DNA of 64,000 nucleotides from an uncultured Flavobacteriaceae bacterium. GTDB taxonomy: Bacteria; Bacteroidota; Bacteroidia; Flavobacteriales; Flavobacteriaceae. Numbering within the stretch: position 1 is the first letter of the stretch; every line of letters starts with the position of its first letter. The stretch covers positions 1 through 64,000 of the forward strand of contig CANMSB010000016.1 of NCBI GenBank assembly GCA_947500445.1, given 5' to 3'. This document shows, piece after piece, positions 13,451 through 48,105 of this stretch. The notes under the pieces are model-generated. The model did not search any database, was not told the DNA's origin, and saw only the letters and a list, made by a program, of their open reading frames with translations. A program made the position numbers and the translations under genes.

Positions 13451-13462
13451 TTAATCGATTAA
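13451..13462. promoter_or_regulatory. LacI-family operator, kduI promoter
   Basis: TTAATCGATTAA, a perfect 12-bp palindrome with the central CG typical of LacI/GalR operators. The same pattern TTAAnCGnTTAA recurs at 22852, 34355, 38523 and 48094, each time upstream of a glycan gene. It lies 154 bp upstream of the kduI start. Predicted to be bound by the regulator encoded at 37449-38483. Confidence 0.65.
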
Positions 13463-13465
13463 CCA

Positions 13466-13473
13466 TACTTTGG
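13466..13473 (+). promoter_or_regulatory. Candidate -7 element of the kduI promoter
   Basis: TACTTTGG begins 3 nt after the operator. It resembles the Bacteroidota core TAnnTTTG with one base missing from the spacer. The fucI promoter has the same 3-nt spacing to its operator. Confidence 0.35.
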
Positions 13474-13616
13474 TTCGGTTTAAGGCTACTTTATAATTGA
13501 ATAGGGCAGCTTTTGCAGAATATAATAGTTTTAAGATAATGATGAAGGGCAGTATTTATGTAGTTTTATGACCCTGAAAACAAAAACAAAAACAATAACA
13601 CAGAGATATAAAAAAT

Positions 13617-14456
13617 ATGGCAACATCTTATGATACGCGGTACGCTTCCAGTCCGGAAGCCGTTAAAAAATATGACACCGAACAACTTCGTGACGAATTC
13701 TTAATCGATAATTTAATGCGAAAGGGCGAACTGCATCTTACCTATACCCATTACGATCGTTATATTGCCGGTTCCGCCGTTCCCGAAGAGCCTTTGGTCT
13801 TGGAAGCGATCGACCCTTTAAAAGCGGAGTACTTTTTGGAACGGCGTGAACTGGGTATCATCAACGTTGGTGCTGCGGGAACAGTGACTGTTGATGGAAC
13901 GGAGTATGCGCTTCATCATAAGGATGCCCTCTATATTGGAATGGGTGCCAAGGAAGTTATTTTTGCTAGCGACAGTGCAGCGGACCCCGCTAAATTTTAT
14001 TTGAATTCGGCTCCGGCGCATACGAGCTACCCGACTAAAAAGGTAAGTTTAGCAGAGGCGAATAAACTAGAATTGGGAGCATTGGAAACGGCCAACCATC
14101 GAACGGTTAGTCAAATGATTATAGGAGGAGTGGTCACTACATGTCAGTTGCAAATGGGAATGACCGAACTGAATACCGGAAGCGTATGGAATACCATGCC
14201 CGCACACGTACACGATCGTAGGATGGAAGTATACTTTTATTTGGATGTGCCCGAGGGACAGTCCGTTTGCCATTTTATGGGCCAACCACAACAAACACGA
14301 CATATTTGGATGCAGAACCATCAGGCGGTCATTTCCCCGCCATGGTCGATACATTGCGGTTCCGGAACCTCGAACTATACCTTTATTTGGGGCATGGCGG
14401 GCGAAAACTTGGATTATAGTGATATGGACGTTGCCAAAATAACCGATTTAAGATAA
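13617..14456 (+). CDS. kduI: 5-keto-4-deoxyuronate isomerase (5-dehydro-4-deoxy-D-glucuronate isomerase)
   Basis: 279 aa, the usual KduI length. It converts 5-keto-4-deoxyuronate, the ring-opened product of unsaturated uronates made by polysaccharide lyases, to 2,5-diketo-3-deoxygluconate in the cytoplasm. The metal ligands are visible as H197, H199, E204 (PAHVHDRRMEVYFY) and H246 (PPWSIHCGSG), matching the E. coli pattern of three His and one Glu. It is the first gene of kduI-kduD-DUF4861, with only 3 nt before kduD. An upstream palindromic operator suggests repression by the LacI-family protein of this locus. Confidence 0.96.
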   Translation: MATSYDTRYASSPEAVKKYDTEQLRDEFLIDNLMRKGELHLTYTHYDRYIAGSAVPEEPLVLEAIDPLKAEYFLERRELGIINVGAAGTVTVDGTEYALHHKDALYIGMGAKEVIFASDSAADPAKFYLNSAPAHTSYPTKKVSLAEANKLELGALETANHRTVSQMIIGGVVTTCQLQMGMTELNTGSVWNTMPAHVHDRRMEVYFYLDVPEGQSVCHFMGQPQQTRHIWMQNHQAVISPPWSIHCGSGTSNYTFIWGMAGENLDYSDMDVAKITDLR

Positions 14457-14459
14457 CTC

Positions 14460-15254
14460 ATGAGTACGGAACTGTTTAACTTAAAAGGGAAAATTGCGTT
14501 GGTGACCGGAAGCACGCACGGTCTCGGTATGGCCATGGCAGAAGGCTTGGGAAAGGCCGGTGCTACCATAATCGTGAACGGAAACTCTTCGCAACAAAAG
14601 ATCGATGATGCGGTCGCGTATTATGAGCGGGAAGGTGTTACGGCCGTAGGATATAAATTTAATGTTGCCGACGAACAACAGGTTATTAATGCCATAACCA
14701 AAATACAGAGCGAGCAAGGACCCATCGATATTTTGGTCAACAATGCCGGAATCATCAAACGGACCCCGCTGGAAGAAATGGAAGTGGCCGATTTTAAAGA
14801 AGTGATCGATATCGATTTGGTAAGTCCGTTTATCATGTCCAAACAGGTCGTAAAAAGTATGATCGCCCGCAAACAGGGAAAAATCATCAACATCTGTTCC
14901 ATGATGAGTGAACTAGGTAGAAATACCGTAGGCGCATATGCCGCTGCCAAAGGAGGATTAAAGATGCTGACGCAAAACATGGCCACGGAATGGGCAAAGC
15001 ACAACATACAGGTCAATGGTATCGGTCCAGGATATTTTGCAACCTCACAAACCGCGCCTATCCGCGTGGACGGGCACCCGTTCAACGAGTTTATCCTAAA
15101 CCGTACTCCGGCCGCGAAATGGGGCGACCCTAACGATTTGGCAGGAGCCGCAATTTTTTTATCGTCCAAGGCCAGTGATTTTGTAAATGGCCATATCCTG
15201 TATGTGGACGGAGGAATTTTGGCCACCATTGGAAAACCTGTAAACGAAAAGTAA
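14460..15254 (+). CDS. kduD: 2-dehydro-3-deoxy-D-gluconate 5-dehydrogenase (SDR family)
   Basis: 264-aa short-chain dehydrogenase. The Rossmann nucleotide site TGSTHGLG is at 16-23, NNAG at 94-97, catalytic Ser near 147, and Tyr160/Lys164 in YAAAK. The C-terminal TPAAKWGDPNDLAGAAIFLSS and YVDGG are typical of the KduD/gluconate 5-dehydrogenase branch. It reduces 2,5-diketo-3-deoxygluconate to KDG using NAD(P)H, the step after KduI. Gene order kduI-kduD with a 3-nt gap makes the KduD assignment firm. KDG kinase and KDPG aldolase genes are not in the window. Confidence 0.94.
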   Translation: MSTELFNLKGKIALVTGSTHGLGMAMAEGLGKAGATIIVNGNSSQQKIDDAVAYYEREGVTAVGYKFNVADEQQVINAITKIQSEQGPIDILVNNAGIIKRTPLEEMEVADFKEVIDIDLVSPFIMSKQVVKSMIARKQGKIINICSMMSELGRNTVGAYAAAKGGLKMLTQNMATEWAKHNIQVNGIGPGYFATSQTAPIRVDGHPFNEFILNRTPAAKWGDPNDLAGAAIFLSSKASDFVNGHILYVDGGILATIGKPVNEK

Positions 15255-15269
15255 ACGACATTGAAGAAC

Positions 15270-16445
15270 ATGGATTTGAAGGCAATCGGAACACTTTTTA
15301 TCGTATCGCTACTGATGTCATGTGCCGATACGGCATCGCGTCCGCTTCGTATTGCGGTAAAGAACTCACTTTCCTACGATCGTTCCAACGAAACCGTGTC
15401 CTTGAAGTTGGAAGCTTTGGGCTCCAAAATGGGAACGGGAAAAATCGAAATATCGGAACCCGGTTCCGGAACGGTATTGGTGACACAGCTGCTAGATTCC
15501 GATAATGACGGAACTATGGACGAAGTATTGTTCCAGCCTAAGGTAGCCGCGAACTCGGAAGCGATTTTTGAGGTGACACTACACGAAAAAACGAACGGTG
15601 CGGAAACGCCGCATGTGTGTTATTCCAGGTTCGTTCCCGAGCGGACCGACGACTATGCCTGGGAGAACGACCGTGTGGCATTTCGAACTTTTGGACCAAC
15701 GGCACAAAGAATGAACGAAGAAGGGGTACCCGGGGGAACCTTGTCCAGCGGTATCGATGCGTGGCTAAAACGTGTTGACTATCCCATTATCGACAAATGG
15801 TACCATAAAGAGTTACAGACCGAAGGTACCTACCATGAGGATAATGGCGAGGGCTTGGACAATTTTCATGTGGGCATTAGCCGCGGGGTGGGCGGTACGG
15901 CAAAAAAAGTGGATAGCATTTATGCCTTTTCCAAGAATTTCACGGATTGGAACACCCTGTATACAGGGCCTATACGTACCGGGTTTACGCTTACCTATGC
16001 CGATTGGGACGCCAACGGTAAAAAAATACGGGAGGTGAAGAAGATTACCCTAGATCGTGGAAGCAACCTTTCCCGTTTCGAAATTTCGGTTACCGGAACC
16101 GATACCCTTTCCGCCGGGCTAACCCTTCATGAAAAGGACGGCCTTAGCAGTATAGATGAAAAGCAAGGCTGGTTGAGTTATTGGGAACCCCATGGGGATT
16201 CCGAATTGGGGACGGCCATTATCGTTCCCGACGGAAAAATGATCGGTCATGAAAATTACGACACGGAACTAACCGATGCCAGCAACCTTTTTGCGCATAT
16301 TGAGGCCACCGGTGGGAAAATAATCTACTATTCTGGTTTTGGTTGGAAAAAAAGTGGGCAGTTTGCGGATAAGGAGGACTGGGAGCGGTATGTGTCCCGT
16401 TTTTCAGAACTGCTGCGGCATCCGTTGGAGGTTAGGGTGAAATAG
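15270..16445 (+). CDS. DUF4861-family lipoprotein
   Basis: About 391 aa from ATG 15270 (an in-frame TTG 9 nt earlier is possible). Signal peptide with lipobox LLMSC (Cys17). The body matches my memory of DUF4861, a beta-sandwich family found beside pectin, ulvan and other uronate-polysaccharide genes in Bacteroidota: LLDSDNDGTMDEVLFQP, YAWENDRVAFRTFGP, and a conserved WYHKELQTEGTYHEDNGEGLD stretch. The biochemical function is not established to my knowledge. It follows kduD by 15 nt, so it belongs to the same operon and probably acts in the periplasm or at the cell surface on uronate-containing oligosaccharides (inference). Confidence 0.8.
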   Translation: MDLKAIGTLFIVSLLMSCADTASRPLRIAVKNSLSYDRSNETVSLKLEALGSKMGTGKIEISEPGSGTVLVTQLLDSDNDGTMDEVLFQPKVAANSEAIFEVTLHEKTNGAETPHVCYSRFVPERTDDYAWENDRVAFRTFGPTAQRMNEEGVPGGTLSSGIDAWLKRVDYPIIDKWYHKELQTEGTYHEDNGEGLDNFHVGISRGVGGTAKKVDSIYAFSKNFTDWNTLYTGPIRTGFTLTYADWDANGKKIREVKKITLDRGSNLSRFEISVTGTDTLSAGLTLHEKDGLSSIDEKQGWLSYWEPHGDSELGTAIIVPDGKMIGHENYDTELTDASNLFAHIEATGGKIIYYSGFGWKKSGQFADKEDWERYVSRFSELLRHPLEVRVK

Positions 16446-18192: not shown

Positions 18193-19391
18193 CTGTCGTG
18201 TCAATCATCAAATGTTGGATAAAGACGTTTTAGTTTTATTCTTGCATCCTCCGATGTGAACTGCCAATCCGCCTTTGCGTTCCTGTTGTTCCTGTATTGT
18301 TGCCACGCCTGCACCTCCCTTTGCACTTCCGCCATGTTGTCGATCCTCCTCCCAAGGCATTGGCCCAAGAGCACGTTCAGTTCTATCTCGGCCATGTTGA
18401 GCCAACCGCCGTGCTTGGGCGCGTACACGAACTCGAACCTGTCCCACAGCCTTTTGGCCTCTTCCGGTGGATAGGTCTCGTACAAAGACCCCGGGTTTGT
18501 GCGTGTTCAGGTTGTCCATGACCAATGTGATCCTCTCGGCGTCCTTATATAGGTCGGCGATTCCGGACAGGTATTCCGCCCAGTCCCTCTTGGTCTTTGT
18601 CCGTGTCACTTTCACGTACCGCTTTCCAGCCAGTGGCTCGATCGCCATGAAAATGTTGCACACGCCGTTCCTCCTGTATTCGTGGTCGTACTTTTTCACA
18701 CTGCCCGGCACGGCCTTTATGGGGGTCTTTGCCTCGCCGATGAGCTGCTTTGGGGAATTGTCCATGCACACTACGGGTAACATAGGGTCGTACCTGCGTT
18801 TGTAGACCTCCAGCACCTTTTCCATATGGGCCACGAAATCGCCGTTCTGAAGGGGAGGTATCACCCAGCCCTTCTTCTTTCAGGGCTTGAGCTCGTTTTT
18901 TTTAGGAGCCGGCGTACCGTCTCGTGCGATATGGATTCGACGTATTCCAGTTCCACGGCCCTGTCGGCCAACAGCCTCAGCGACCACCTGGCGAACCCTT
19001 CCGGGGCCTCGTTGCAGCTCAGTGCGACCAAGCGGGCCTCCAGGTCGCCGTCCACCTTCCTCTTGTAGGTCCTTGTACCCTTGCTTCCGTTAAGGGCGGT
19101 GTCGAACCCTTCCTCGACAAACCTCTTCTTGACCCGGTCGATTTTCCTCATGCTTATGTTCAGGACCTGCGAAACCTCCTCGTTGGTGGATGCCCGGCCC
19201 TGGAACTCCCCACGGTCACAGTTCAACAATATCAGTGCGTTAAGCACTTTTTTGGGACTTGTGGGAACCCTTTGTGGAGATGTCCACAAGCGACATCCTT
19301 TCTTCTTGGGTCAATGTCACTTTGTATCTGGCCATGGTGATTTACGATAAAATTACTCAAATAATACGACTTTATATAGTTGACACGACAC
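18193..19391 (-). mobile_element. IS630-family insertion sequence
   Basis: About 1.2 kb bounded by 11-bp terminal inverted repeats TGTCGTGTCAA (18194-18204) and TTGACACGACA (19380-19390). TA dinucleotides flank both ends (18191-18192 and 19392-19393), as expected for IS630, which duplicates TA. The left flank is the broken IS5 transposase; the right flank is the last codon region of the FG-GAP gene. Confidence 0.85.
18201..19335 (-). pseudogene. IS630-family transposase, multiply broken
   Basis: The start ATG at 19335 opens MARYKVTLTQEERMS. The frame shifts in an A6 tract, then an HTH segment follows (STNEEVSQVLNISMRKIDRVKKRF, SHETVRRLLKK). At an A8 tract near 18896 the frame shifts again; the following frame contains a TGA where family members have Trp (KP-stop-KKK). 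The DDE part starts near 18864 (VVCMDNSPKQLIGE, LVMDNLNTHKPG) and shifts once more at a GGGG run near 18490 into YETYPPEEAKRLWDRFEF and HGGWLNMAEIELN, ending at 18201. One A-tract shift could be programmed, but the stop and the GGGG shift make it inactive. Confidence 0.85.
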
Positions 19392-22300
19392 TAGTCGCCA
19401 TCCACTTTTTTGAACACTTGAAGACTGTCCGAGTTATTGCCCACCCATATATACTCGCCCTTATCGGCATCTTTCCCGAGTTGAACCTTGATCATATTCT
19501 GTGCGTTCCTATTCGCCAAGAAACCCGAGGTGGCGCCTCTCGCAACCTTGAAATTACCCGCTCCATCTCCTTTCAGGAGGGCGCCTGAAAAGGCATCGTA
19601 GCGCCCCATGGTGACATCGGTGCTATAGTCGTTCCCAATGACCAGCGCGTCTAAATGACCGTTACCGTCAAAATCCGCTATAATAAATTCTTTTAACGGA
19701 GCCATTTGCAGCTCCATGGGCAAGGGTCGTATTTCAAATTTTCCCTGCCCTACATTTTCAACGTAACTACTGGTAAAGAGATAGCTCTCCAATACTTCTG
19801 CGTCTTTCAACTCAGAGGCCGTAAAGACTTCTTTAAACGGTTTTTCAGCATATTGATGATAGTTGGTAAAACGTCGCTTAAGTGGAGGGATTTGTTTAAT
19901 CAAATCATCACGATAGGCCACCGTCTGCTCAACCCCGTAAATATATTGGGATAAAACCGGGTCTATACTACCGTTTTGATCAAAATCTTTGGCGTACAAA
20001 CGAAAAGGTTCCTCTATGCTTGCCCTGTAATCCGTATTCATGCCTAGATTACCTGCTAAAAAATCCAGGTCGCTATCCTTGTCAAAATCGCCCGCTGCAA
20101 TCGTGTTCCACCATCCGTTTGAACCCGAAATGATAGTAGGCTCGGCGGCTAGTTTTCCTGCCCTATTCTCAAAAATTGTGATGGGCATCCATTCGCCTAT
20201 TAAGATCAAATCCTTGTCGCTATCACCATCAAAATCTGTCCACAGGGCGTCGGTGATCATGCCAATACGATTCAATTTTGAAACACCTTCCTTTATCGAC
20301 TTTCTAAAAGTACCTTTTTGGTTTTCCAATAAATAGCTTTGGGGGGTTCTGGGATATTCCCCCGGGCTTACACGACCCCCGACGAACAAGTCGGTATCCC
20401 CGTCCCCATCGTAATCGGCCGCAGCGATCGCTTTGGTGCTCGTCGGCATTGCAGGGAGTGCGGTCTCGTTGCGTACAAAATTTCCTAAACCATCATTTTG
20501 GTAGAGCCTATCCTGGTATATCGTGGGTTTCCCATATTGAATAACGCCACCGGAACACACATAAAGGTCCAGGTCCCCATCGCCATCCGAGTCAAAAAAC
20601 AGGGCGTTGGTGTCCTCATGCGCGTTGTCGAAGGCCCACTCCTCTTTAATGAAGGTGCCATCGGCTTTTTGAAAAAACAAAACGGCAGGTTTACCGGCCG
20701 CACCGCCTATAAACACATCCTCGTAGCCATCGCCATTCACATCCCCATTCGCCATTGCGGGTCCTAGCTGGGAGTGTTGGTGCGGTAAAAGGGATTGCTG
20801 TTTAAAATCGACCTGTTTATCTTCCTGATGCAAATACTTTACCTGATTCCGGGGCGCGGCTCTTTCGAAAAGAATCGGTTCCGTTTTCACCTTTACTGGG
20901 GCGCTAGCCTCTTTTGCCGAACTGTTTTTAAGCAACAATAACGTATTGGTCTCCACGTTTTTGCGAACCGCTTTTCTACCATCTGGAAAAACTACCTTGA
21001 TACTATCCAAAAGGGTTACCTCCCCCAAACCAAAATGTAGCATCGGGTCTACGCTGGACTGATAGCCACGATAGGTGGTGTGCTCGGCAAATTGCATTTC
21101 TTCTCCATAATACAACCAAATTTTTGCTCCCAAGGCCTGACGATTATGTGGGGTTCCTTCCAATTGTAGTTTCAGGTAGCGGTTGTTCGAAAGTTCATTG
21201 GCCCTATTTTCATAAATAAAGGCTTCTTGACCGATGTTGTTGACCACGATATCTAAATCGCCATCCAGGTCTAAATCGGCAAATGCCGCTCCACTCGAGA
21301 CCGAACGCTCATTGATACCCCATTCCTTCGATTTTTTTGCAAACCCCTCCCCTTTTCTATTCTGGTATACATAGTTGAAAAGGGAGGCCGCTGGCTGTTC
21401 GTTGATCAACGCCAATCTTCTTTCCTTTTGTGACTCCACCGTACCGAAAGGATTCCATTCGCCGTAGTTGATATAGTCTAGATTCCCTAGGTCTCTTTTA
21501 AAGCCATTGGTAATATATAGATCACGAAAGCCATCATTGTCGTAATCGGCCAAAAGCGCACTCCAGCTCCACCCGGTTTTGTGAACCCCGAATTGTTGAC
21601 CTACCTCACTATAAGTGCCGTCGCCATTATTCAATTGTAACGTATTGCGTGTGTACGATGGTTCATATCCATTATCGACGGCACGCTGAAAACGGTCATA
21701 GTTACCTGAGATTACGATCATTTTACGACGGTAGTTTTCTTCTGGCAGCATATCCAAAACGTACACTTCCGGCAAACCGTCGTTATTGATATCGGCAACA
21801 TCCATGCCCATACTGGCGTAACTTGTATGCTTAAAGAGCGCTGCCGCACGGTTGGTAAAAGTTCCATCCCTGTTGTTGATATAGGCGATGTCGTTACTTA
21901 AAAAGTCGTTGGTGATATAAACATCCGGCCAGTGGTCATTGTTCAGGTCGCTGACGTTCAGGCCAAGACTGTAGCCCTCGATTAATATACCTGCCTCTTT
22001 GGAAATGTCGGTAAATAAAGGAATGTCCTTTGATGTAGCATCGTAGCGTCCCTCTTTTCGTTTCAACTCGTTTTCGACGGTATTGTTGCGGTAAAGCTTG
22101 TCGGTACTGATAGCCTCGCCCCTTACTTTTTTGGGACGAATATAATTTACCTTTTCCAATTCGTATTCCGGGGGATTCACGATTACAAAAAGGTCAAGGT
22201 CACCGTCCTTGTCAAAATCGAAAAAATTGGCATGGGTGCTGGGCGAGGCGTCGGCTACACCGTAATGTTCAGCACTTTCGGTAAAGGAAATTTGATGCTT

Positions 22301-22795
22301 TCCATCTCGAATACCATTGTTGATAAACAGGAGGTTTTTAAGTTTTTCCGGGGATGCGATTCCGGAGACGCTTAGATAAAGGTCGAGCCATCCATCGGAA
22401 TTAATGTCGACTACGGTCACGCCCGTGACCCACCGGTCCGTCACCAAACCGGCCGCTGCGGTAGCATCCTTGAAGTTGAAATCGCCTCGATTTAGGTAAA
22501 GGCGACTGGTTTCCATACATCCACCAAAAAAAATATCCGGCAAACCGTCCTTATCAAAATCACCAACGCCGACCCCGGAACCCGTATAAATATTACTAAA
22601 ATTTAAAAAATTATAGTGATCATTTTCAATGATTTCGTTTTTAAATCCAACTCCGGTCAGCTTCGCGGGCAAGCTTTCGAAAAGCCGGGGCGTTTTAGAA
22701 AATTCGGTACATGAGCAGCACACGGCAATTGCTCCTATGCACGCTGATTGCATAACTTGAATACCAAAAAGGACGGCACTTTTTTTTTTAGGCAT
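19391..22795 (-). CDS. FG-GAP/VCBS-repeat lipoprotein with UnbV/ASPIC domain (copy 1)
   Basis: About 1134 aa from ATG 22795 (an upstream in-frame TTG at 22813 is less likely). Signal peptide with a Cys-rich lipobox (VCCSC). At least ten FG-GAP/VCBS blades with DxDxDG calcium-binding loops (DFDKDGLPD, DINSDGWLD, DLDLDGDLD, DYDGDGDTD), and a mid-protein ASPIC/UnbV segment (HFGLGEVTLLDSIKVVFPDGR). Such giant lipoproteins often accompany SusC/SusD pairs; their role is not established and is probably surface glycan or protein binding. Its paralogue lies at 25612-29241 and runs about 60 residues longer at the C-terminus. The stop codon here is formed at the IS630 boundary, so some C-terminal residues may be lost. 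A LacI-type operator lies 57 bp upstream. Confidence 0.85.
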   Translation of the reverse strand: MPKKKSAVLFGIQVMQSACIGAIAVCCSCTEFSKTPRLFESLPAKLTGVGFKNEIIENDHYNFLNFSNIYTGSGVGVGDFDKDGLPDIFFGGCMETSRLYLNRGDFNFKDATAAAGLVTDRWVTGVTVVDINSDGWLDLYLSVSGIASPEKLKNLLFINNGIRDGKHQISFTESAEHYGVADASPSTHANFFDFDKDGDLDLFVIVNPPEYELEKVNYIRPKKVRGEAISTDKLYRNNTVENELKRKEGRYDATSKDIPLFTDISKEAGILIEGYSLGLNVSDLNNDHWPDVYITNDFLSNDIAYINNRDGTFTNRAAALFKHTSYASMGMDVADINNDGLPEVYVLDMLPEENYRRKMIVISGNYDRFQRAVDNGYEPSYTRNTLQLNNGDGTYSEVGQQFGVHKTGWSWSALLADYDNDGFRDLYITNGFKRDLGNLDYINYGEWNPFGTVESQKERRLALINEQPAASLFNYVYQNRKGEGFAKKSKEWGINERSVSSGAAFADLDLDGDLDIVVNNIGQEAFIYENRANELSNNRYLKLQLEGTPHNRQALGAKIWLYYGEEMQFAEHTTYRGYQSSVDPMLHFGLGEVTLLDSIKVVFPDGRKAVRKNVETNTLLLLKNSSAKEASAPVKVKTEPILFERAAPRNQVKYLHQEDKQVDFKQQSLLPHQHSQLGPAMANGDVNGDGYEDVFIGGAAGKPAVLFFQKADGTFIKEEWAFDNAHEDTNALFFDSDGDGDLDLYVCSGGVIQYGKPTIYQDRLYQNDGLGNFVRNETALPAMPTSTKAIAAADYDGDGDTDLFVGGRVSPGEYPRTPQSYLLENQKGTFRKSIKEGVSKLNRIGMITDALWTDFDGDSDKDLILIGEWMPITIFENRAGKLAAEPTIISGSNGWWNTIAAGDFDKDSDLDFLAGNLGMNTDYRASIEEPFRLYAKDFDQNGSIDPVLSQYIYGVEQTVAYRDDLIKQIPPLKRRFTNYHQYAEKPFKEVFTASELKDAEVLESYLFTSSYVENVGQGKFEIRPLPMELQMAPLKEFIIADFDGNGHLDALVIGNDYSTDVTMGRYDAFSGALLKGDGAGNFKVARGATSGFLANRNAQNMIKVQLGKDADKGEYIWVGNNSDSLQVFKKVDGD

Positions 22796-22851
22796 AGTAA
22801 ATATCTTTCTCAAGGATTAACGAACTCATTTAGACTTTTGCCTTTATTGAC

Positions 22852-29450: not shown

Positions 29451-29474
29451 CTAAAACTAACTCAACTAACTCAA

Positions 29475-31004: not shown

Positions 31005-31013
31005 AACAAAATT

Positions 31014-38651: not shown

Positions 38652-40406
38652 ATGTATCCAAAAATTGGAATTCGCCCCATTATAGATGGCCGATTGGGCG
38701 GCGTACGAGAGTCATTGGAGGAAACTACAATGAAAATGGCGCAAAATGTGGCCAAGTTTTATGCTGAAAACTTGAAGTATCCCGACGGTACCCCAGTGGT
38801 ATGCGTTATTGCCGATAGTTGTATCGGAGGGGTCAAGGAAGCTGCCGATTGTGCTACAAAATTTAAGTCTGAAAATGTAGGGGTATCCCTTTCCGTAACG
38901 CCCTGTTGGTGCTATGGAACGGAGACGATGGATATGGATGCCGCCATACCCAAGGCAATTTGGGGCTTCAATGGTACCGAACGCCCCGGTGCAGTATATT
39001 TGGCCGCAACCTTGGCCGGCCATAACCAAAAAGGTTTGCCGTCTTTCGGGATATATGGTAGGGACGTTCAGGATTTGGGGGATGAAGCCATTCCGGAAGA
39101 TGTACGTGAAAAACTATTGGGCTTCGCAAAAGCGGGACTGGCCGTTTCCATAATGAAAGGCCGCTCATACTTGGCCATAGGAACAGTTTCCATGGGAATC
39201 GCAGGTTCTGAAATTCAATCGGACTTTTTTCAGTCCTATTTGGGAATGCGGAACGAATATGTGGATTCTTCAGAAGTGTTGCGAAGGATAGAACACCGGA
39301 TTTACGATGCCGATGAATATGAAAAAGCATTGCAATGGACCAAGGAACATTGTAAAGAAGGCGCCGACTTTAATGAGGAAGAGAAACAGCGATCACGCCA
39401 ACAGAAAGATGAGGACTGGGAGTTTGTAGTGAAAATGACCTTGGTGATTAAGGACCTGATGGATGGCAACCCTAAACTTGCGGATATTGGATACGGTGAA
39501 GAAGCCTTGGGGCATGATGCCTTGGTGTCCGGTTTTCAGGGACAGCGACAATGGACCGATTTCTTGCCGAACGGGGATTTTTCCGAAGCGATACTCAATT
39601 CTTCTTTTGATTGGAACGGTATACGTAAACCCTATATGGTTGCTACGGAAAACGATTCGTTGAACGGAATTTCGATGTTGTTCAATTACCTGTTGACCAA
39701 TACGGCACAAATTTTTGCAGATGTACGTACCTACTGGAGCCCTGATGCGGTGACTAGGGTTACCGGATGGTCTCCTAAGGGTCGTGCCAAGGAAGGGTTC
39801 ATCCATTTGATCAACTCCGGTTCGGCCACTTTGGACGGTTCCGGACAACAACGTGCCGATGGGAAGCCCGTTATGAAACCATTTTGGGAAATTTCGGAGC
39901 AAGAGAAAGAAGCCTGTTTGGACGCTACCACATGGTACCCAGCGGATTTAGGCTATTTCCGGGGTGGTGGCTATTCGTCCAACTTCCTTACAAAAGGGGA
40001 AATGCCCTTGACCATGTGCCGCATCAATCTCGTAAAGGGATTGGGTCCGGTATTGCAAATTGCCGAAGGGTGGAGCATCGATTTGCCGGAAGAAGTCCAC
40101 GACACCTTGGACGTCCGTACCAGTAGAACCTGGCCGACCACCTGGTTCGTGCCCAACCTCACTGGTGAAGGGGCGTTTACCGACGTATATGCCGTAATGA
40201 ACAACTGGGGCGCCAACCACGGTGCCATCAGTTATGGACATATCGGAAAAGACCTGATTACCCTGGCCGCCATGTTGCGCATACCCGTTTGTATGCACAA
40301 TGTTAGCGAAGAAAAAGTGTTTCGTCCCTCCGCATGGAACGCCTTTGGAATGGATAAGGAAGGTCAGGACTACCGCGCCTGCGAAACCTATGGGTCGCTT
40401 TACTAA
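38652..40406 (+). CDS. fucI: L-fucose isomerase
   Basis: 584 aa, the normal length (E. coli 591). Interconverts L-fucose and L-fuculose in the cytoplasm with Mn2+. The active-site metal ligands can be aligned: E333 (ATENDS), D357 ([10 protein letters not shown]) and H523 ([11 protein letters not shown]), corresponding to E. coli E337, D361 and H528. An N-terminal [10 protein letters not shown] start and WCYGTETM support the family. First gene of an operon fucI - kinase - GH151-like - fucP, with gaps of 18, 25 and 54 nt. Confidence 0.96.
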
Positions 40407-40424
40407 TCAAAAAAAGAAGACGAC

Positions 40425-42095
40425 ATGTCGGATCATGACAACTACGTAATCGGGGTCGATTATGGTACCGCTTCCGTACGCTCCATTGTAGTGAACACGG
40501 CTAATGGTGAACAGCTGGCCGCCGCGGTGGCCACGTACGAGCGTTTTTCAAAAGGAATGTACTGTAACGCCGCCGAAAATCAGTTTCGGCAACACCCATT
40601 GGACTATATCGAAGGTCTGGAGCGGTCGGTAACCGCGGCATTGTCCCAATGTGACGATACCGTTAAAAAGAATATTCGCGCGATTTCCGTGGATACTACC
40701 GGATCTACCCCAGTGGCGGTCGATAAAACCGGTACCCCTTTGGCGTTGACCCCGGGCTTTGAAGACAACCCGAACGCAATGTTCTTTCTTTGGAAGGACC
40801 ATACTGGTATACGGGAGGCGGAGGAGATTAACGACCATGCGAAACGTCAAGAAACCGATTACCTCAAATATGTAGGGGGCATTTACTCTTCGGAATGGTT
40901 TTGGGCAAAACTGTTGCGCATGCTCCGGGAAGACGAAAAAGTTGCAAAAGCGGCCCATTCCTGGGTAGAACATTGTGATTGGATCCCGTTTTTACTGACG
41001 GGGGGTACCGATGTGAAAAAAATTAAAAGAGGTGTTTGCGCCGCCGGTCACAAAGCATTGTGGGACAAAGAATGGAACGGATTTCCACCGGACGATTTCT
41101 TTACCGGAATAGATTCCTTGCTAAAGGGCTGGTCGGGTCGGTTGCCCCAAGATACGTTTGCCGCTGATCGTCCCGCAGGGCGGTTGAGTGAAGCGTGGGC
41201 AATGAAATTTGGGTTGAGCACTGATGTCCAAATAGGTATCGGTGCCATGGATGCCCATATGGGAGCCGTAGGAGGGCAAATTGAACCCTATTACATGAGC
41301 AAGGTGATGGGAACCTCTACTTGCGATATGTTGGCCCTACCGACGCAAGAGGTCGGCTCGGTGCTGGTAGACGGTATCTGCGGACAGGTTACCGGTTCGG
41401 TAATTCCGGGTATGATAGGAATGGAAGCGGGACAATCCGCTTTTGGCGATGTGTATGCCTGGTTTCAGCAAGTATTGGCATGGCCGCTAAAAAACTTTAG
41501 GGACAACTTGGGGGCTACCGATAAAGCGGAGACCTTGGAAGTACTACAGCATATAGAAGATTCGCTATTAAAAGAACTTAACCGATCCGCCGAGAAAATT
41601 GAACTCACCGAGGGATTGGAACTGGCGTTGGATTGGTTGAACGGACGTAGAACGCCCGATGCGGATCAATCGGTAAAAGCCGCTATAACCGACTTGAGCC
41701 TTGGTTCCGATGCACCCCATATGTTTAGGGCTCTGGCCGAAGCGACCTGTTTTGGGGCCAAGAAAATCGTGGAACGTTTTACGGACCGTGGCATTCCCAT
41801 AAAGGGAATTATCGGTGTTGGCGGGGTGGCAAAAAAAGCCCCTTTCATCATGCAAATGATGTCCGATGTATTGGAACTTCCGATACGCATACACAAATCC
41901 GAACAGACCTGCGCCTATGGTGCCGCAATGTTCGCCGCCACCGTAGCCGGAATTTATCCTGATGTACAACAGGCGATGAAACAGATGGGGCAGGGTTTTG
42001 ACGAAACCTACCGTCCCAATGATGAACGGTCGGTCATTTACAAAAAACGCTATGCAAAGTACTTGGAATTGAGCAACTTTGTGGATTCGAAATAG
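40425..42095 (+). CDS. FGGY-family sugar kinase of ribulokinase (AraB) type; probable L-fuculokinase
   Basis: 556 aa; begins with the ATP-binding phosphate-1 motif GVDYGTASVRSIVV typical of AraB. Other FGGY marks: IGIGAMDAHMGAVGGQ with the probable catalytic Asp, KVMGTSTCDM, and the C-terminal GGVAKKAPFIMQMMSDVLELPI (adenosine/phosphate-2 site). The sequence is closer to ribulokinase than to FucK, but the gene lies between fucI and fucP, so its substrate is most likely L-fuculose (inference); some ribulokinases accept several ketoses. No fuculose-1-phosphate aldolase is nearby. Confidence 0.88.
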   Translation: MSDHDNYVIGVDYGTASVRSIVVNTANGEQLAAAVATYERFSKGMYCNAAENQFRQHPLDYIEGLERSVTAALSQCDDTVKKNIRAISVDTTGSTPVAVDKTGTPLALTPGFEDNPNAMFFLWKDHTGIREAEEINDHAKRQETDYLKYVGGIYSSEWFWAKLLRMLREDEKVAKAAHSWVEHCDWIPFLLTGGTDVKKIKRGVCAAGHKALWDKEWNGFPPDDFFTGIDSLLKGWSGRLPQDTFAADRPAGRLSEAWAMKFGLSTDVQIGIGAMDAHMGAVGGQIEPYYMSKVMGTSTCDMLALPTQEVGSVLVDGICGQVTGSVIPGMIGMEAGQSAFGDVYAWFQQVLAWPLKNFRDNLGATDKAETLEVLQHIEDSLLKELNRSAEKIELTEGLELALDWLNGRRTPDADQSVKAAITDLSLGSDAPHMFRALAEATCFGAKKIVERFTDRGIPIKGIIGVGGVAKKAPFIMQMMSDVLELPIRIHKSEQTCAYGAAMFAATVAGIYPDVQQAMKQMGQGFDETYRPNDERSVIYKKRYAKYLELSNFVDSK

Positions 42096-42120
42096 ATGGA
42101 TTTGCCTAACAATTGAAAAA

Positions 42121-44280
42121 ATGAACAGATCAGTGATACAGTCGATAGTTTTACCAGTACATGCCATTAAAACCGGCCTACTGCTTTTAAGTGTTTTTCT
42201 TGTCGCCTCTTGCAAAACGACCGGAGAAGAACCCGAAAAACGGATAAAGGATTTATCGCAAAATGCTTCCTTGGAGTTTGAAGAACCTACGCGGCAAATA
42301 CACTTGGATTTTCACACCTCCCAGTATATCGATAGTATCGGATTTAAGTTCGACAAAAAACAGTTCCAAAAAGCGCTCCGGGTAGGGAAGGTGAACGCCA
42401 TCAATATTTTTGCAAAAGGGCACCATAGCTGGAGTTACTATCCGACCAAAATCGGAATGGTACATCCAAAACTGGATTTTGACCTGTTGAAAGCACAAAT
42501 TGAGGCCTGTAGGGAAATTGACGTGGAAGTTTTCGCATACTTTACCGTGGGTTGGTCCGCAAACGACGTAAAAAAACATCCGGAATGGGCCGTTGTCGGA
42601 AAGGATGGTTCGAACGCCTTTAGGGAACAACTAAAAACCCTCGGTCCGAATGATAGCTTTAGTGGATGGGAGTATCTGGAACCTTCTGGGGAATATGCCG
42701 AGTTGATCTATGCCCAGACCGAGGAACTGATCAAAAATTATGATTTGGACGGAATCTGGTACGACATTCACGAACCGGAAAAGATGAACTTCAATCCTTG
42801 GAGCCTCAACGATTACAAACAGCGGGGCATCGATAGCAACGACTCCCTAGCTGTAAAAAAACGTACTTACGAGAAGTACGATACGTTTTTTGAAAAAACG
42901 GGCGAAATCATTAAAAAGTACAAACCGGAAGCGACCATTTACTATAACGGTACTACCCGAACCTATAACACCGAGAACATTAAGTTATTCAAACACGGTT
43001 TCTTTGTACACAATACCAAACACGACTTGGAAGACCTGCCTACCGCATGGGGCGGATATGATATTTTTCCATGGAGGTCCAAGTATTTTGCCAATACCGG
43101 AAAGGATATTGTTGCCATGAGCGGTAAGTTTCACAAAGCTTGGGGTGAATTTGGCGGATTCAAACATAAGGATGCCCTTTTGTATGAAGCGGCTTCCATG
43201 GTCGCTTTTGGCGCGTCGTGCAATATGGGCGACCAATTGCATCCTTCGGGAGAAATGGACATGGGTACCTATGAAAACATCGGTTATGCTTTTGACTATG
43301 TAGAAAAAATAGAGGATTATGGTGTCGGGGCCGACCATGTTGCCAAAACGGGGCTATATATAGGGGAAGACCTGACCGCCATTGAAGGGGCGGTCGCCAT
43401 GCTATTGGAGAACCAGGTGAACTTTAATGTCGCCAATACCATGCAGGATTGGTCGAACTTGGAAGTATTGGTCATCACCAGCGGAGGGGTCCTTGATCGG
43501 GACGTTTCCAAGGTAAAGGAGTTTGCGGCAAAAGGTGGAAAGATCATCGGATTGGGAGAAGGGATCTTAAAGAATAACGAACCGATCGTGGATATCGGTG
43601 CGGAATATGTTGGACCAGCCGATTACGATATCGATTATACCGTAGTGGAAGCGTCCATTGGGAAGGGATTGGTATCCTCACCATTTTTAAACTACACCGC
43701 GGCGTTACGGGTAAAACCCAAGGAGGGAGCGTCCGTGTTGGCGAGCATACGCGAACCCTTTTTCTCAAGAACGGTTACGCATTATAGTTCCCATAACAAC
43801 ACACCCAACCGTTTGGATGCCGCCGAACACCCCGCCGTAATCCGAAACGGAAACATTATATTTATAGCGCACGATATTGATCGTCAATACAGTAGGGAAG
43901 GTGCCCGGACCCACAGAGATCTCTTTTATAACAGTTTACAGCTCCTACGAATGCAACCTATGGTAACGACCGAAATGCCGAGTATGGGCCGATTGAACCT
44001 GTTGCACCAGCCGAAACAAAAACGGTATGTGGCACATTTACTTTACGCCTCACCTATTCAAAGGGGTTCGGTAAGGGTAGTGGAAGATTTGGTGCCGCTT
44101 TACGATACCCACGTGACCTTGGACCTTCCAGAATCGATAACAGAGGCCTATTTGGTGCCCTCCGGTGAGGTATTGTCCATAGGAGAAGTTGAGGACGGTC
44201 GAATATTGGTGACCGTTCCAAAATTTGAATGCCATACCGCGATCGTACTCGAATATGGTGAAGCCGATGCGGTAGAATAA
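42121..44280 (+). CDS. GHL6/GH151-like glycoside hydrolase, putative alpha-L-fucosidase (copy 1)
   Basis: About 719 aa from ATG 42121 (upstream in-frame starts would bury the signal). Lipobox VASC (Cys31). An N-terminal TIM-barrel of the hypothetical-glycoside-hydrolase-6 type (QIHLDFHTS near 59, INIFAKGHHSWSYYP, LDGIWYDIHEP at 209-218, SGKFHKAWGEFGGF) is followed by a beta-galactosidase-trimerisation-like domain (VLVITSGGVLDRD, KGGKIIGLGEG) and a C-terminal beta-sandwich. Asp215 in GIWYD lies where GH29 fucosidases have their WFD nucleophile. The family resembles GH151, which has alpha-L-fucosidase members; the fucI/fucP context supports that. Activity is not proven by sequence. Confidence 0.75.
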   Translation: MNRSVIQSIVLPVHAIKTGLLLLSVFLVASCKTTGEEPEKRIKDLSQNASLEFEEPTRQIHLDFHTSQYIDSIGFKFDKKQFQKALRVGKVNAINIFAKGHHSWSYYPTKIGMVHPKLDFDLLKAQIEACREIDVEVFAYFTVGWSANDVKKHPEWAVVGKDGSNAFREQLKTLGPNDSFSGWEYLEPSGEYAELIYAQTEELIKNYDLDGIWYDIHEPEKMNFNPWSLNDYKQRGIDSNDSLAVKKRTYEKYDTFFEKTGEIIKKYKPEATIYYNGTTRTYNTENIKLFKHGFFVHNTKHDLEDLPTAWGGYDIFPWRSKYFANTGKDIVAMSGKFHKAWGEFGGFKHKDALLYEAASMVAFGASCNMGDQLHPSGEMDMGTYENIGYAFDYVEKIEDYGVGADHVAKTGLYIGEDLTAIEGAVAMLLENQVNFNVANTMQDWSNLEVLVITSGGVLDRDVSKVKEFAAKGGKIIGLGEGILKNNEPIVDIGAEYVGPADYDIDYTVVEASIGKGLVSSPFLNYTAALRVKPKEGASVLASIREPFFSRTVTHYSSHNNTPNRLDAAEHPAVIRNGNIIFIAHDIDRQYSREGARTHRDLFYNSLQLLRMQPMVTTEMPSMGRLNLLHQPKQKRYVAHLLYASPIQRGSVRVVEDLVPLYDTHVTLDLPESITEAYLVPSGEVLSIGEVEDGRILVTVPKFECHTAIVLEYGEADAVE

Positions 44281-44334
44281 CGTAATAACTTACTTTGCCA
44301 ATACCCAACGATATCGTTTACTAAAAAAGCTATT

Positions 44335-45672
44335 ATGTCCGAAAGCACTAAAATTCCAGTGGTACGAAAAGAACTGTTGTTCCCTTTCATTGCCATAACC
44401 TCCCTATTTTTTTTGTGGGGTATTGCGAACGATCTCACCAATCCAATGGTGTCGGCCTTTAAAAAGGTAATGCCCGAACTTTCGAACTTTGAAGCTGCAT
44501 TGGTACAATTGGCCTTTTACGGGGGCTATGCGACAATGGCCATACCGGCCGCTATTTTCATACGCAGGTATAGCTATAAAAAGGGTATTCTGCTAGGGTT
44601 GGTGCTCTATGCAATTGGGGCCTTTCTTTTTTATCCCGCGGCGGCGTATGAAGCGTTCGGTTTTTTTCTGGCATCCTTGTATATCCTTACTTTCGGCCTG
44701 GCCTTTTTAGAAACGACCTCCAATCCCTTTATCCTATCCATGGGAGACCCGGAAACGGCGACCAGAAGGCTTAACCTTTCACAGGCCTTTAATCCGATGG
44801 GGTCTTTATTGGGCATGTTGGTGGCGCAACTTTTTGTCATTCAATCCTTGCGTTCCGATGACTATTCTTCGGGGGCCTATGCGGCCTTGGGACAGGTGGA
44901 AAAGGCGGCCATTCGTGAAAACGACCTTGGGGTCATCAGCTACCCTTATATTGCCCTGGGTATTTTGGTAGTGGTTATTTTGTTGATCATCATGTTTACC
45001 AAATTCCCCGTATTTCGGGAAGAATCCAAAATGTCACTAAAAACCTCCTTCCGTAAACTGATGGGCAACCGCCATTATTATGAAGGGGTTATTGCCCAAG
45101 CGTTCTATGTTGGGGCCCAAATCATGTGTTGGACCTTTATTTTCCAGTACGTAGATCATTTGAACGAAAGTCGTGAAGCCGGAGCGCAGTTGACGGCAAC
45201 GTGGTACAATATGGCCGCAATGATCTTTTTCCTTTCAGGACGTTGGATCTGTACCTGGCTCATGAAGTTTGTGAAGGCACCAAAACTAATGCTGTATTTT
45301 GCTCTTGCGGGGGTGTTGTTCTGTTCGGGCGCCATTTTGTTGCCAGGAATGTTGGGACTTTATTCCCTTGTAGCGGTTAGCGGCTGTATGTCGTTGATGT
45401 TCCCAACCATTTACGGAATCGCCTTAAAAGGAATGGGCGATGAGGCAAAATTAGGATCTGCCGGTCTGGTGATGGCCATTGTTGGGGGTGCTTTGATGCC
45501 ACCCTTACAAGCTTCCATTCTCGATTGGGGCGGTCCCGGTTTTTCCGATGTTCAAATAGCGGGCAGTATCCCCGAAGTAAAGTTTTCGTTCATACTTCCA
45601 TTGATCTGTTTGGCCGCTGTAGCCATATATAGTTTTCGCTCCCGTGCCGTAGTAGATGAATCTGCCGCTTAA
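44335..45672 (+). CDS. fucP: L-fucose:H+ symporter (MFS, FHS family)
   Basis: 445 aa, about 12 transmembrane helices. Key residues of E. coli FucP are conserved: the acidic residue in NDLTNP (Asp33, equivalent to Asp46) and the one in FLETTSNP (Glu125, equivalent to Glu135). GGYATMAIPAA and SQAFNPMGSLLG are also FucP-like. It imports L-fucose across the inner membrane. Last gene of the fuc operon, ending at a strong bidirectional terminator. The start follows a 54-nt gap. Confidence 0.93.
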   Translation: MSESTKIPVVRKELLFPFIAITSLFFLWGIANDLTNPMVSAFKKVMPELSNFEAALVQLAFYGGYATMAIPAAIFIRRYSYKKGILLGLVLYAIGAFLFYPAAAYEAFGFFLASLYILTFGLAFLETTSNPFILSMGDPETATRRLNLSQAFNPMGSLLGMLVAQLFVIQSLRSDDYSSGAYAALGQVEKAAIRENDLGVISYPYIALGILVVVILLIIMFTKFPVFREESKMSLKTSFRKLMGNRHYYEGVIAQAFYVGAQIMCWTFIFQYVDHLNESREAGAQLTATWYNMAAMIFFLSGRWICTWLMKFVKAPKLMLYFALAGVLFCSGAILLPGMLGLYSLVAVSGCMSLMFPTIYGIALKGMGDEAKLGSAGLVMAIVGGALMPPLQASILDWGGPGFSDVQIAGSIPEVKFSFILPLICLAAVAIYSFRSRAVVDESAA

Positions 45673-46002
45673 AATAAACCAACATAAGGGCTACTTCCCG
45701 CATGTTATCCTATTTCTGATATTACCGTACATAAGGAATAAAGGAATCTTTTAAGGGATCGGTTACCGTTAGAAATGGTAGTACTGCACTATCGTAGTCG
45801 TTAAAGGACCTTTAAGGTCATAGAGAAAAAAACGGATAAGAGTATAGTTGTAGTAAAGCGGTAAGCACGAGAGGAAACCGTCGGTAGGATAATAATGCAA
45901 AAGCACAAAGCGCACGAACCATTTCGTGCGCTTTGTGCTTTTTTAAGGGCTATACCGGTAGTATTTGGAATAGCCCAATTTTATAATCAGCAATCGGTAC
46001 TA
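45673..46002. other. Convergent intergenic gap
   Basis: About 330 bp between the convergent fucP and GH151-like copy 2 genes. No gene; contains the bidirectional terminator at 45901-45944. Confidence 0.5.
45901..45944. terminator. Bidirectional intrinsic terminator
   Basis: Perfect 18-bp stem, 45901-45918 pairing with 45923-45940, loop CCAT, flanked by an A-run on the left and TTTT on the right. It serves fucP on the plus strand and the GH151-like gene on the minus strand. Confidence 0.85.
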
Positions 46003-48078
46003 TCATTCGTATTTGAAAACGATTGCCGTGTGCATGGTAAAGGTGGGTACAGTTACCTTAACGGCGCTTCCTTCTTGCGTAAAGGGCAAGCTGCTGCCCT
46101 CAGGTATTTGTATCACTTCCGTTATTTTTTCCGGTACATCGAGCGTTAGGGATACTCCCGGTACCGGTAAAAAGTCCTCCAGTACGCTTACATCGCCCCG
46201 CAACAACGGTGGGCCGTACAACAAATGGGTCACATAACGTTTGTCCGACGACTGTTGCAAAAGACTCACCCGGCCTGCGCTAGGAAGCCGCTCCACATTT
46301 AAAATTGGTTTTTGGTACAAGAGGTCAATCGCATTGTTTACAATATCCCGATGTAGCCGAACCCCTTTATCATAATACAATTGATCAAGCTGATGCGCAA
46401 AAAAGATAACGTTTCCATTTTTGACGATTGCCGGATAGGCCGAATCTTCCGTTTTGTACGGTGTTTCACGATGTCCGTTAAACTTGGCGTAGGTACGGTT
46501 GAAATACGGCTCCCGAATACTGGCCAAGGATTCCCCCGTTGTCAATTTTGATAAAAGTCCTGCGTCATAGTTCAAGAAGGGTGTGGAGACGATGCCGTCG
46601 GTCAATTCTTTTTTGACTACCGTGTAATCGAATTGAAAATCGGATGGTTTTAGATATTCGGCGCCCACGTTCAGTAGAAAGGCGTTCTCCTCCCGATTTA
46701 AGGCACCGTTGGCAAAAACGATCAATTTACCACCGTTTGCCACCCATGCATTTATGGTATCGGCTTGTTCTTGGCTGAGGACCGCCCTACTGGGGATGAT
46801 GAGCAGTTCCAGATCGTTTAGGTTTTTTTCGTCCGCAACGATAAAATCGTTATGGGTTTCCAATAACATGTTTACCACACCGTGGTCCGCTGCTTCGTCC
46901 AAGGTCAGCCACATGCCCAATTTGGATAAGGGCATTCCCCCGGGACCGTAATCCTCTATTTTTTCGACATACGAATAGGCATGCCCGATATTCTTATAGG
47001 TTTCCATATCCATTTCCCCGGAAGGATGCAGTTGGTCCCCAAAATTACAGGAAGCACCGTACGATATCATTGCGGCCGCTTCATACTTAATGGCATCGGG
47101 ATCTTTAAAGCCTCCGAATTCGCCCCAGGCCATATGGAATTTACCGCTCATACCGGTTGCCGGAACGCCTTGTTGCAAATGGTACTTGGCATCCAATGGT
47201 AGTTTATTGTATCCGCCCCAAGTGGTCGGTAAGTCTTCAAGATCTTGATGGGTGTCCATGTCGAACAAACGTTCTTTAAAGAAGGAGGCGTCCTCAATTC
47301 GGGTTACGGCATTAAAGTAGACCGTTGCTTCGGGGCGGTGTTTGGCCACCAGATCCCGTAAGGCTTTCATATGTCCTTTCAGCGCGAGGGAGTGGCTGCG
47401 TTCCACGGCTAGGGTATCCGTAATGTCGACCCCTTCTTTGGCCATTCGTTTTTTAGCGTTGTCATTGTAGTTTCTTTTCGCCACGTGATAAATATCGAAC
47501 CAAAAACCGTCGAGGTCCGGATATTTTTTACAGATTTCGGTCACCTGTTTCATAATGTGATCGTGGTATGGGGTTCCGATACTGGGGTCGAGCCGTTCCC
47601 ATAAATAGGTAGGGCGTTCCGTATCTCCGGGTGCTTCACGGTCGTAACCGGGAGCATTTATGGAACCGTCCTCGTCCCGAATTGTCCACTCCGGATGTTC
47701 CCGAACATCCAGTTCGCTCCAACCAATGGTGAAGTAAAAAGGAGCGGTAACCCCTATTTCATGGCAGGCCTCCAATTGCGCGCCCAACAGGTCGAAATCA
47801 AGGTTAGGGTGCATTTTTCCCACCTCGGTAGGGTAGTACGACCAACCGTGATGTCCTTTACTGAAAATATTGATGTGGTTTACCTTGCCCGTTTTTAGGG
47901 CTTCCTGAAACTGTTTTTTATTAAATTTTTTACCGATATCGGGTATATGCTCGGAGGTATGAAAATCAAGATGTACCTGCCTAGTGGGCATGGGCGCATC
48001 GATACTTCGCTGCGATTGGCCGCTCATGACGGTCGCAAAAGCAAAACAAATGATAAAAAAACATATCGGTCGGTTCAT
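46003..48078 (-). CDS. GHL6/GH151-like glycoside hydrolase, putative alpha-L-fucosidase (copy 2)
   Basis: 691 aa with a Sec signal peptide (cleavage near VMSGQS, residues 18-23), so secreted rather than lipid-anchored, unlike copy 1. Same architecture: VHLDFHTSEH, INIFSKGHHGWSYYP, LDGFWFDIYH with candidate catalytic Asp195, MSGKFHMAWGEFGGF, GDQLHPSGEMDM, then the trimerisation-like and C-terminal sandwich domains. It is transcribed alone, convergent to the fuc operon, with its own LacI-type operator 15 nt before the ATG. The two paralogues may act on different linkages or in different compartments. Confidence 0.75.
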   Translation of the reverse strand: MNRPICFFIICFAFATVMSGQSQRSIDAPMPTRQVHLDFHTSEHIPDIGKKFNKKQFQEALKTGKVNHINIFSKGHHGWSYYPTEVGKMHPNLDFDLLGAQLEACHEIGVTAPFYFTIGWSELDVREHPEWTIRDEDGSINAPGYDREAPGDTERPTYLWERLDPSIGTPYHDHIMKQVTEICKKYPDLDGFWFDIYHVAKRNYNDNAKKRMAKEGVDITDTLAVERSHSLALKGHMKALRDLVAKHRPEATVYFNAVTRIEDASFFKERLFDMDTHQDLEDLPTTWGGYNKLPLDAKYHLQQGVPATGMSGKFHMAWGEFGGFKDPDAIKYEAAAMISYGASCNFGDQLHPSGEMDMETYKNIGHAYSYVEKIEDYGPGGMPLSKLGMWLTLDEAADHGVVNMLLETHNDFIVADEKNLNDLELLIIPSRAVLSQEQADTINAWVANGGKLIVFANGALNREENAFLLNVGAEYLKPSDFQFDYTVVKKELTDGIVSTPFLNYDAGLLSKLTTGESLASIREPYFNRTYAKFNGHRETPYKTEDSAYPAIVKNGNVIFFAHQLDQLYYDKGVRLHRDIVNNAIDLLYQKPILNVERLPSAGRVSLLQQSSDKRYVTHLLYGPPLLRGDVSVLEDFLPVPGVSLTLDVPEKITEVIQIPEGSSLPFTQEGSAVKVTVPTFTMHTAIVFKYE

Positions 48079-48093
48079 GACAAATGAATTTGA

Positions 48094-48105
48094 TTAAACG
48101 TTTAA
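48094..48105. promoter_or_regulatory. LacI-family operator, GH151-like copy 2
   Basis: TTAAACGTTTAA, a perfect 12-bp palindrome and the best copy of TTAAnCGnTTAA in the window. It overlaps the expected transcription start, 15 nt upstream of the ATG. Confidence 0.7.

Follow-up and report, generated by a model that had tools for sequence, protein, structure and literature searches.

Can a single LacI-family protein control, through one operator, the fucose, uronate and transport genes that lie close together in an uncultured Flavobacteriaceae bacterium (assembly GCA_947500445.1)? The stretch concerned covers the opening 64 kb of contig 16 (CANMSB010000016.1; hereafter, the window), in a genome of 5,175,366 bases and 177 contigs; five palindromes of one pattern, TTAAnCGnTTAA, had been reported in it, and the original prediction held that they serve a LacI-family gene at 37449 and that all units behind them answer to one inducer. 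Comparison of sequences supported the operator itself, its link to a clade of LacI proteins, the recurrence of targets in relatives and the geometry of the promoters, and we put the probability at about 0.79 that the 37449 protein acts locally, as a repressor of the LacI/GalR family, on this operator set, with a fucose-type inducer and fucose-catabolism targets. G, C and L numbers below denote genomes, contigs and loci.

Operator sites in the window

A pattern search found TTAAnCGnTTAA at exactly the five predicted positions (13451, 22852, 34355, 38523 and 48094), and the palindromes are thus real: five observed against 0.20 expected, with none of 100 shuffles giving five. That the window holds no further full match was also borne out, even when one mismatch was allowed; about 4.9 exact and one-mismatch matches together would arise by chance, and the five exact ones were all that was observed. 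All five lie outside open frames of at least 100 amino acids, and no frame of at least 60 amino acids starting within 60 bases before any of them reads through that site.

13451..13462, operator 1, upstream of kduI; a -7-like box, TACTTTGG, one letter off TAnnTTTG, starts 3 bp after the operator
22852..22863, operator 2, before the minus-strand gene FG-GAP1; scores lowest among the five
34355..34366, operator 3, upstream of susC2
38523..38534, operator 4, in the lacI-fucI interval, within a predicted promoter's spacer; TATCTTTG starts 3 bp after the operator
48094..48105, operator 5, just downstream of the -7 box TATATTTG; the start codon of GH151-2 follows after 15 nt

The whole genome contained 20 sites, versus 2 for the reversed-pattern control, and five in one 64 kb stretch compare with 0.25 under an even scatter of the 20 (Poisson P ~6e-6). 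An origin as chance AT-rich palindromes might be argued from the presence of the motif in 196 of 199 family genomes, many of them at or below the reversed control (judged by eye). Clustering, and the positional conservation and clade association described below, contradict this for the whole set, making it exceedingly improbable; single sites could be chance.

Each palindrome had been placed upstream of a different unit, and domain and profile searches supported these targets.

13617-14456, +, kduI; KduI over cut-off; first gene of the unit 13617..16445
14460-15254, +, short-chain dehydrogenase/reductase gene 'kduD'; above cut-off as gluconate 5-dehydrogenase, below cut-off as KduD
15261-16445, +, DUF4861 gene; last gene of the kduI unit
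19391..22813, -, FG-GAP/ASPIC-UnbV protein 1 (FG-GAP1), 1140 amino acids
31014-34244, -, susC2; first gene of the unit 25612..34244
29475-31004, -, susD2; after susC2
25612-29241, -, FG-GAP2, an FG-GAP/ASPIC protein; same strand, after susC2-susD2
37449..38483, +, LacI-family regulator gene; LacI helix-turn-helix (HTH) and Peripla_BP_3
38652-40406, +, fucI, L-fucose isomerase; first gene of the operon 38652..45672
40425-42095, +, FGGY kinase of ribulokinase type; over the cut-off of PRK04123 and just under that of another ribulokinase model
42079-44280, +, GH151-type copy 1; fucI operon
44335-45672, +, fucP; FucP over cut-off; last gene of the fucI operon
46003..48078, -, GH151-type alpha-L-fucosidase copy 2 (GH151-2); matches PDB 6tvk ('Alpha-L-fucosidase', E 1.3e-115), which we take to be a GH151 enzyme

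In the kduI-kduD-DUF4861 unit, the first and last names stood and 'kduD' did not, scoring as gluconate 5-dehydrogenase and under the KduD cut-off. The susC2-susD2 pair stood as well, and its unit also takes in FG-GAP2, which had not been listed; this three-gene order was also found in the relative G199.

The 37449 protein and its clade

The 37449 protein has an N-terminal LacI HTH domain (PF00356; 51.9 bits, cut-off 27) and a periplasmic-binding-protein-like effector domain (PF13377; 98.9 bits), and its Pfam matches were LacI, Peripla_BP and two weak HTH models, with no GntR. A palindromic operator with a central CG at putative regulated promoters, seen by sequence only, likewise fits the LacI/GalR family. 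The gene is single, as had been stated, in the window; the genome as a whole has four LacI genes: this one, one on contig C17 and two on C5.

Among LacI relatives with at least 50% identity, the motif was found within 400 bp of the gene in 9 of 11, versus 1 of 18 at 37-42%; the corresponding values in a first subset were 6/6 (at least 50%) and 0/5 (38-40%). The motif-bearing relatives include two Flavobacteriaceae (83 and 81%), Aquimarina (64%), G094 (55%) and two Bacteroidales (50-51%), the last two with motif sites on both sides of lacI. In a 67-protein LacI tree, the 37449 protein fell in a 22-member clade with support of 100/100 (an earlier version had 39 rows; the trees left out L045 and L046, with 26 and 23% identity, and, from one relative search, used only the 30 matches that became loci). 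The motif lay within 400 bp of lacI in 16 of the 22 clade members (window included) versus 4 of the 45 proteins outside, all four in one distant clade: Fisher P 2e-7, a value that ignores relatedness. Furthermore, of the 67 proteins it is precisely the 22 clade members that carry the letters VSYV close to the recognition helix.

A fucI homologue was found within ~9 kb of lacI in two (G616 and G603) of 13 further clade loci; as judged from these, the operator is retained better than the fucose genes in the clade at large. In other family members, a LacI clade of another kind, with no motif in 4 kb (L149, L151, L152 and L153), had a fucP homologue beside it in all four loci and an FGGY kinase homologue in three; fucose control in the family could rest on non-orthologous LacI proteins.

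Operator sequence and promoter geometry

The preferred flanks of 18 core sites extended the operator to ~18 bp, TGnTTAAnCGnTTAAnCA, which is longer than the palindrome first reported. The operators of GalR/LacI proteins and CcpA are likewise palindromes centered on CG; the half-site here is TGnTTAAnCG, with 18 bp overall. Perfect 18-mers were found three times in Pelagihabitans pacificus (4.6 Mb; before GH151-2, fucI and susC/FG-GAP1) and twice in G199 (before fucI and GH151-2), and all five stand at putative regulon promoters. The best copies of the present genome are four with one mismatch, three of which belong to the window; none of the five window sites has more than two. In Aquimarina, a 12-mer with one mismatch and good flanks precedes a sulfatase gene (L099:3837) and is a lead only.

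A Bacteroidota promoter motif, TTTG/TAnnTTTG, is described in the available part of PMC2483708. TAnnTTTG occurred at a fixed offset of +15 in 6 of the 18 core sites versus none of the 14 other sites of this genome, an offset that puts the operator inside the promoter spacer. The GH151-2 sites, three in number, differ: there TAnnTTTG starts 9 or 12 bp ahead of the operator, which thus comes to lie near the predicted transcription start; the other 9 core sites had no exact TAnnTTTG at either position. Both arrangements, within the spacer and just after the -7 box, would suit a repressor.

Recurrence of the targets in relatives

On alignment, three of the five sites (fucI, susC2 and GH151-2) recur in position in relatives. 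The block TTAAACGATTAAGCATATnTTTG precedes fucI in all four genomes compared, the operator and -7 block being found also in G199, P. pacificus and Aquimarina; this operator-promoter block stands out because the wider upstream stretch gave no matching promoter alignment at E 0.01. The aligned position of the susC2 operator is kept in P. pacificus (L114:4565; SusC 94% identical), where susC is divergent from the FG-GAP1 homologue (88%) with one operator between them. G199 has two operators before a SusC of 59% identity (L093:15695 and 15735), and the operator-bearing SusC of Aquimarina is 53% identical to the SusC beside the C17 LacI gene versus 35% to SusC2. The GH151-2 operator is at the aligned place, with the same -7 arrangement, in both G199 and P. 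pacificus.

One operator is thus common to SusC/D, glycosidase and catabolic genes near a regulator gene, as in a local regulon of a polysaccharide utilization locus; the layout is a single locus in the window and in G199, and its susC part is on another contig in P. pacificus.

Sites elsewhere in the genome

The expectation that hits would lie upstream of glycan genes held for the window cluster and failed for the 15 further genome sites, which do not group on such genes. The sole outside site backed by conservation is upstream of a gene for a type IX-secreted CBM9/beta-helix protein of 2028 amino acids (L032; site at G000:C14:57910): good homologues were present in two of five genomes searched (G199, 71%; Aquimarina, 47%), both with the operator upstream, and that of Aquimarina is two genes before lacI. 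This protein probably belongs to the regulon. The other outside sites have no counterpart upstream of the homologous gene among the 11 sites of G199 or the 6 of P. pacificus.

As a negative control, the site at a sodium:solute symporter gene (L021; G000:C29:13782) was missing in four of four orthologues 87-95% identical. A regulon of secreted proteins, considered because several outside sites are at type IX-secreted genes, was dropped except for the CBM9 protein; the L020 and L023 sites are formed by apparent signal-peptide codons (MKFKRL.. and ..HFKRL..). A homologue of the L023 protein (59% over 437 amino acids) sits in the Aquimarina fucose locus. No open frame of at least 60 amino acids covers the L030 site. 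This motif copy stands between a 1803-amino-acid frame with SpvB and TcdB-middle Pfam domains (L030:6600-12011; G000:C9) and a divergent gene for a CBM60/CBM9 type IX-secreted protein. The remaining outside sites (e.g., Nramp at G000:C6:49438, dihydroorotate dehydrogenase and halogenase) are probably background.

Opposing observations and alternative explanations

Several observations speak against one local repressor for the whole set. The count of 20 is not extreme, since 10 of 198 other family genomes exceed 20 copies (tallied from the table); because of this, and because 196 of 199 family genomes have the motif, the bare motif count means little, and clustering and conservation bear the argument. 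The present genome has no perfect 18-mer, and 18-mers with up to two mismatches were not above the reversed control in any of four genomes (here 26 vs 26, with 21 of the 26 places listed); this relaxed scan was dropped as a means of adding regulon members. G018, of the same genus, has no close LacI orthologue (best 34%), yet four motif copies; three of these are also intergenic, and intergenic position was discarded as a proof of function. Six of the 22 clade members have no motif within 400 bp of lacI, although in G442, which is among the six, two copies lie farther off in the locus, between susC-like genes. The distant LacI clade has the same 18-bp operator beside its gene in four of four loci (L066, L068, L069 and L071), a copy with a single mismatch lies in the C17 LacI locus (L037:7412), and a weight-matrix scan gave no recognizable kduI site in the two closest relatives, G199 and P. 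pacificus (G200). Finally, a site (L028:6473; G000:C4) precedes a row of M48 protease, RelA-SpoT and Fur genes, with a distant parallel in Mariniphaga (L123:151) before RelA-SpoT/Fur homologues, unrelated to fucose. Such a site is absent from the site lists of G199, P. pacificus and G018, and neither the L028 nor the L123 site has TG flanks; we read the parallel as probable chance.

With an identical operator standing next to the gene of the distant clade, the motif by itself is not enough to identify the regulator. The sites could be real and belong to a LacI paralogue or a non-LacI factor, the neighboring LacI gene being incidental, and the three additional LacI genes of the genome, one with its one-mismatch copy, point in the same direction. 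In the tree, however, the distant clade includes no LacI gene of this genome; none of the three paralogue loci has an exact motif nearby (the two C5 genes also lack a one-mismatch copy and ATACAATCGATTGTAT), and the motif follows the 37449 clade as far as Bacteroidales. We therefore regard another regulator as improbable. The operators of the distant clade come in pairs 78-89 bp apart, a spacing that may allow looping. On either side of the C17 LacI gene, which adjoins SusC/SusD, stand ATACAATCGATTGTAT and a variant of it differing in one letter (L037:6018 and 7626), perhaps an operator of the gene's own.

A second alternative accepts the 37449 protein as the regulator and restricts its regulon to fucI, susC2 and GH151-2 (with the CBM9 protein), the kduI and FG-GAP1 matches being due to chance or vestigial. 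The missing kduI sites of G199 and P. pacificus favor this, as do the features of operator 2: its promoter stretch has no P. pacificus counterpart, the alignment ending ~29 bp short, it adjoins transposase remnants, and its score is the lowest. On the other hand, five exact matches face an expectation of 0.20, in P. pacificus a single operator is common to FG-GAP1 and susC, and Aquimarina, alone among the relatives, has a counterpart of the kduI site (L101:2683), ~600 bp upstream of the kduI region and before an apparent frame-broken dehydrogenase fragment (judged by eye). The smaller regulon is somewhat unlikely, though the strongest of the competing explanations. Of the proposal of one LacI protein, one operator and several units, the core is thus retained, membership of kduI and FG-GAP1 appears weaker, and most outside sites are not part of it.

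Remnants of IS1595, IS200-like, DDE and mutator-type transposases lie around FG-GAP1, FG-GAP2 and lacI (22909-25306 and 35434-36027). A transposon-end origin of the 22852 site found no support, though where the mobile elements truly end was not established: the inverted repeats found do not include it, and the searched stretch is single-copy except for 114 bases at the other end.

A global catabolite controller of the CcpA/Cra type, in place of a local fucose repressor, would account for 20 genome sites, some before transporters and housekeeping-type genes, and for the M48/RelA-SpoT/Fur row with its Mariniphaga parallel, and the closest PDB matches of the 37449 protein are CcpA-type structures. 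Against it, the protein scored 179 bits with TIGR01481 (ccpA; cut-off 442), and the missing symporter sites, the two signal-peptide sites and the failure of all outside sites save the CBM9 one to recur in G199 or P. pacificus make such a role very unlikely.

Other features of the window

SusC1 and SusC3 (7612-13134 and 48368-53274) have STN domains, each with a FecR gene and an ECF-type (extracytoplasmic function) sigma gene adjoining; SusC2, the one behind the operator, gave no STN match in the domain search. The three SusC systems appear to be under two modes of control, with the operator preceding the one without a sigma/anti-sigma set. The frame at 55899-57038 (-) joins a response-regulator receiver domain to a family-2 glycosyltransferase; its homologues (84% in G199 and 72% in P. 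pacificus) adjoin a conserved 1028-amino-acid protein (57324-60410), for which there was no Pfam match.

Proposed mechanism and substrate

From these comparisons, we infer direct binding, repression rather than activation, the type of inducer and a glycan with fucose and uronate. A dimer of the 37449 protein would bind the 18-bp palindrome at the five cluster promoters, and probably at one elsewhere. At fucI-type promoters, the operator would fill the spacer between the -33 and -7 boxes and, at GH151-2, would directly follow the -7 box over the predicted start, blocking RNA polymerase in both cases. A small molecule from the breakdown of a fucose glycan (L-fucose, L-fuculose or a derivative) would loosen the repressor; release may then induce susC2-susD2 and the FG-GAP proteins for uptake, both GH151-type fucosidases for trimming, the fucI, FGGY kinase and fucP genes for the catabolism of fucose and, in this genome, the kduI operon for the unsaturated-uronate branch. 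One inducer for all units would follow if one repressor binds all five sites.

KduI acts on 5-keto-4-deoxyuronate, which is formed when polysaccharide lyases cut uronic-acid glycans. The neighborhoods in G199 and P. pacificus also hold uxaC and a PfkB-type kinase gene; G199 has TRAP transporter genes after the kduI set, and the genes of the P. pacificus fuc operon include a GH130 gene and one encoding a GH141 domain. A glycan that contains both fucose and uronic acid, as certain fucoidans do, would fit as the substrate.

We also consider it possible, although doubtful, that the LacI clade is operator-frozen across Bacteroidota while its regulon has been rewired: the 18-bp operator and VSYV would persist from Flavobacteriaceae to Bacteroidales, with fucose, uronate and the giant CBM9/beta-helix protein as targets here and apparently other sugars elsewhere, and the distant LacI clade would have arrived at, or kept, the same operator. 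If so, the 2028-amino-acid protein would represent an enzyme or binding protein, so far undescribed, for a glycan that contains fucose and uronate. The proposed system gives a testable operator and regulator for the uptake and breakdown of fucose glycans in Flavobacteriaceae, and its shared operators may help to trace members of unknown role, the CBM9/beta-helix and FG-GAP proteins among them.

Comparison with known systems

A local LacI regulon of a polysaccharide utilization locus, which is well supported here, is a fairly ordinary kind of gene control. No LacI regulator joining fucose, SusC/D, GH151 and kduI was found in the open-access literature, as far as titles and the beginnings of abstracts show. 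In Flavobacterium IR1, lacI23 is also beside susC/D and its mutant alters the response to fucoidan, whereas its neighbors are a maltose transporter and GH65/GH97/GH13 genes (compared by description, from the available part of PMC9131120). Predicted FucR sites and the LacI-family UxuR2 in microbial-mat bacteria, including Algoriphagus marincola, similarly represent computed fucose and uronate regulons in a member of Bacteroidota; however, these are separate regulators, and that FucR, set apart by description in the accessible text of PMC5507952, may overlap the 37449 clade.

The closest parallels are in Bacteroides, as described in the available portion of PMC3878776. FucR (BT1272) also controls a fucose operon, but is of the GntR family with a single target operon, in contrast to a LacI-family protein with several putative targets. 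ManR is likewise a monosaccharide regulator, whose regulon has an operon of extracellular mannosidases and SusC/SusD; however, it is a GntR-family protein for mannose. In B. thetaiotaomicron, uronates are handled by the LacI-family KdgR, UxaR, UxmR and UxuR, which resemble the present case as sugar-acid regulators inferred by comparative genomics, and the KdgR and UxmR regulons also hold a few periplasmic or extracellular proteins. According to the same source, fucose and uronates are under separate regulators in Bacteroides, while one LacI protein here appears to span fucose, SusC/D and GH151-type genes and, in this genome, kduI; this suggests that fucose and uronate catabolism can sit under one switch, which would fit a substrate with both sugars.

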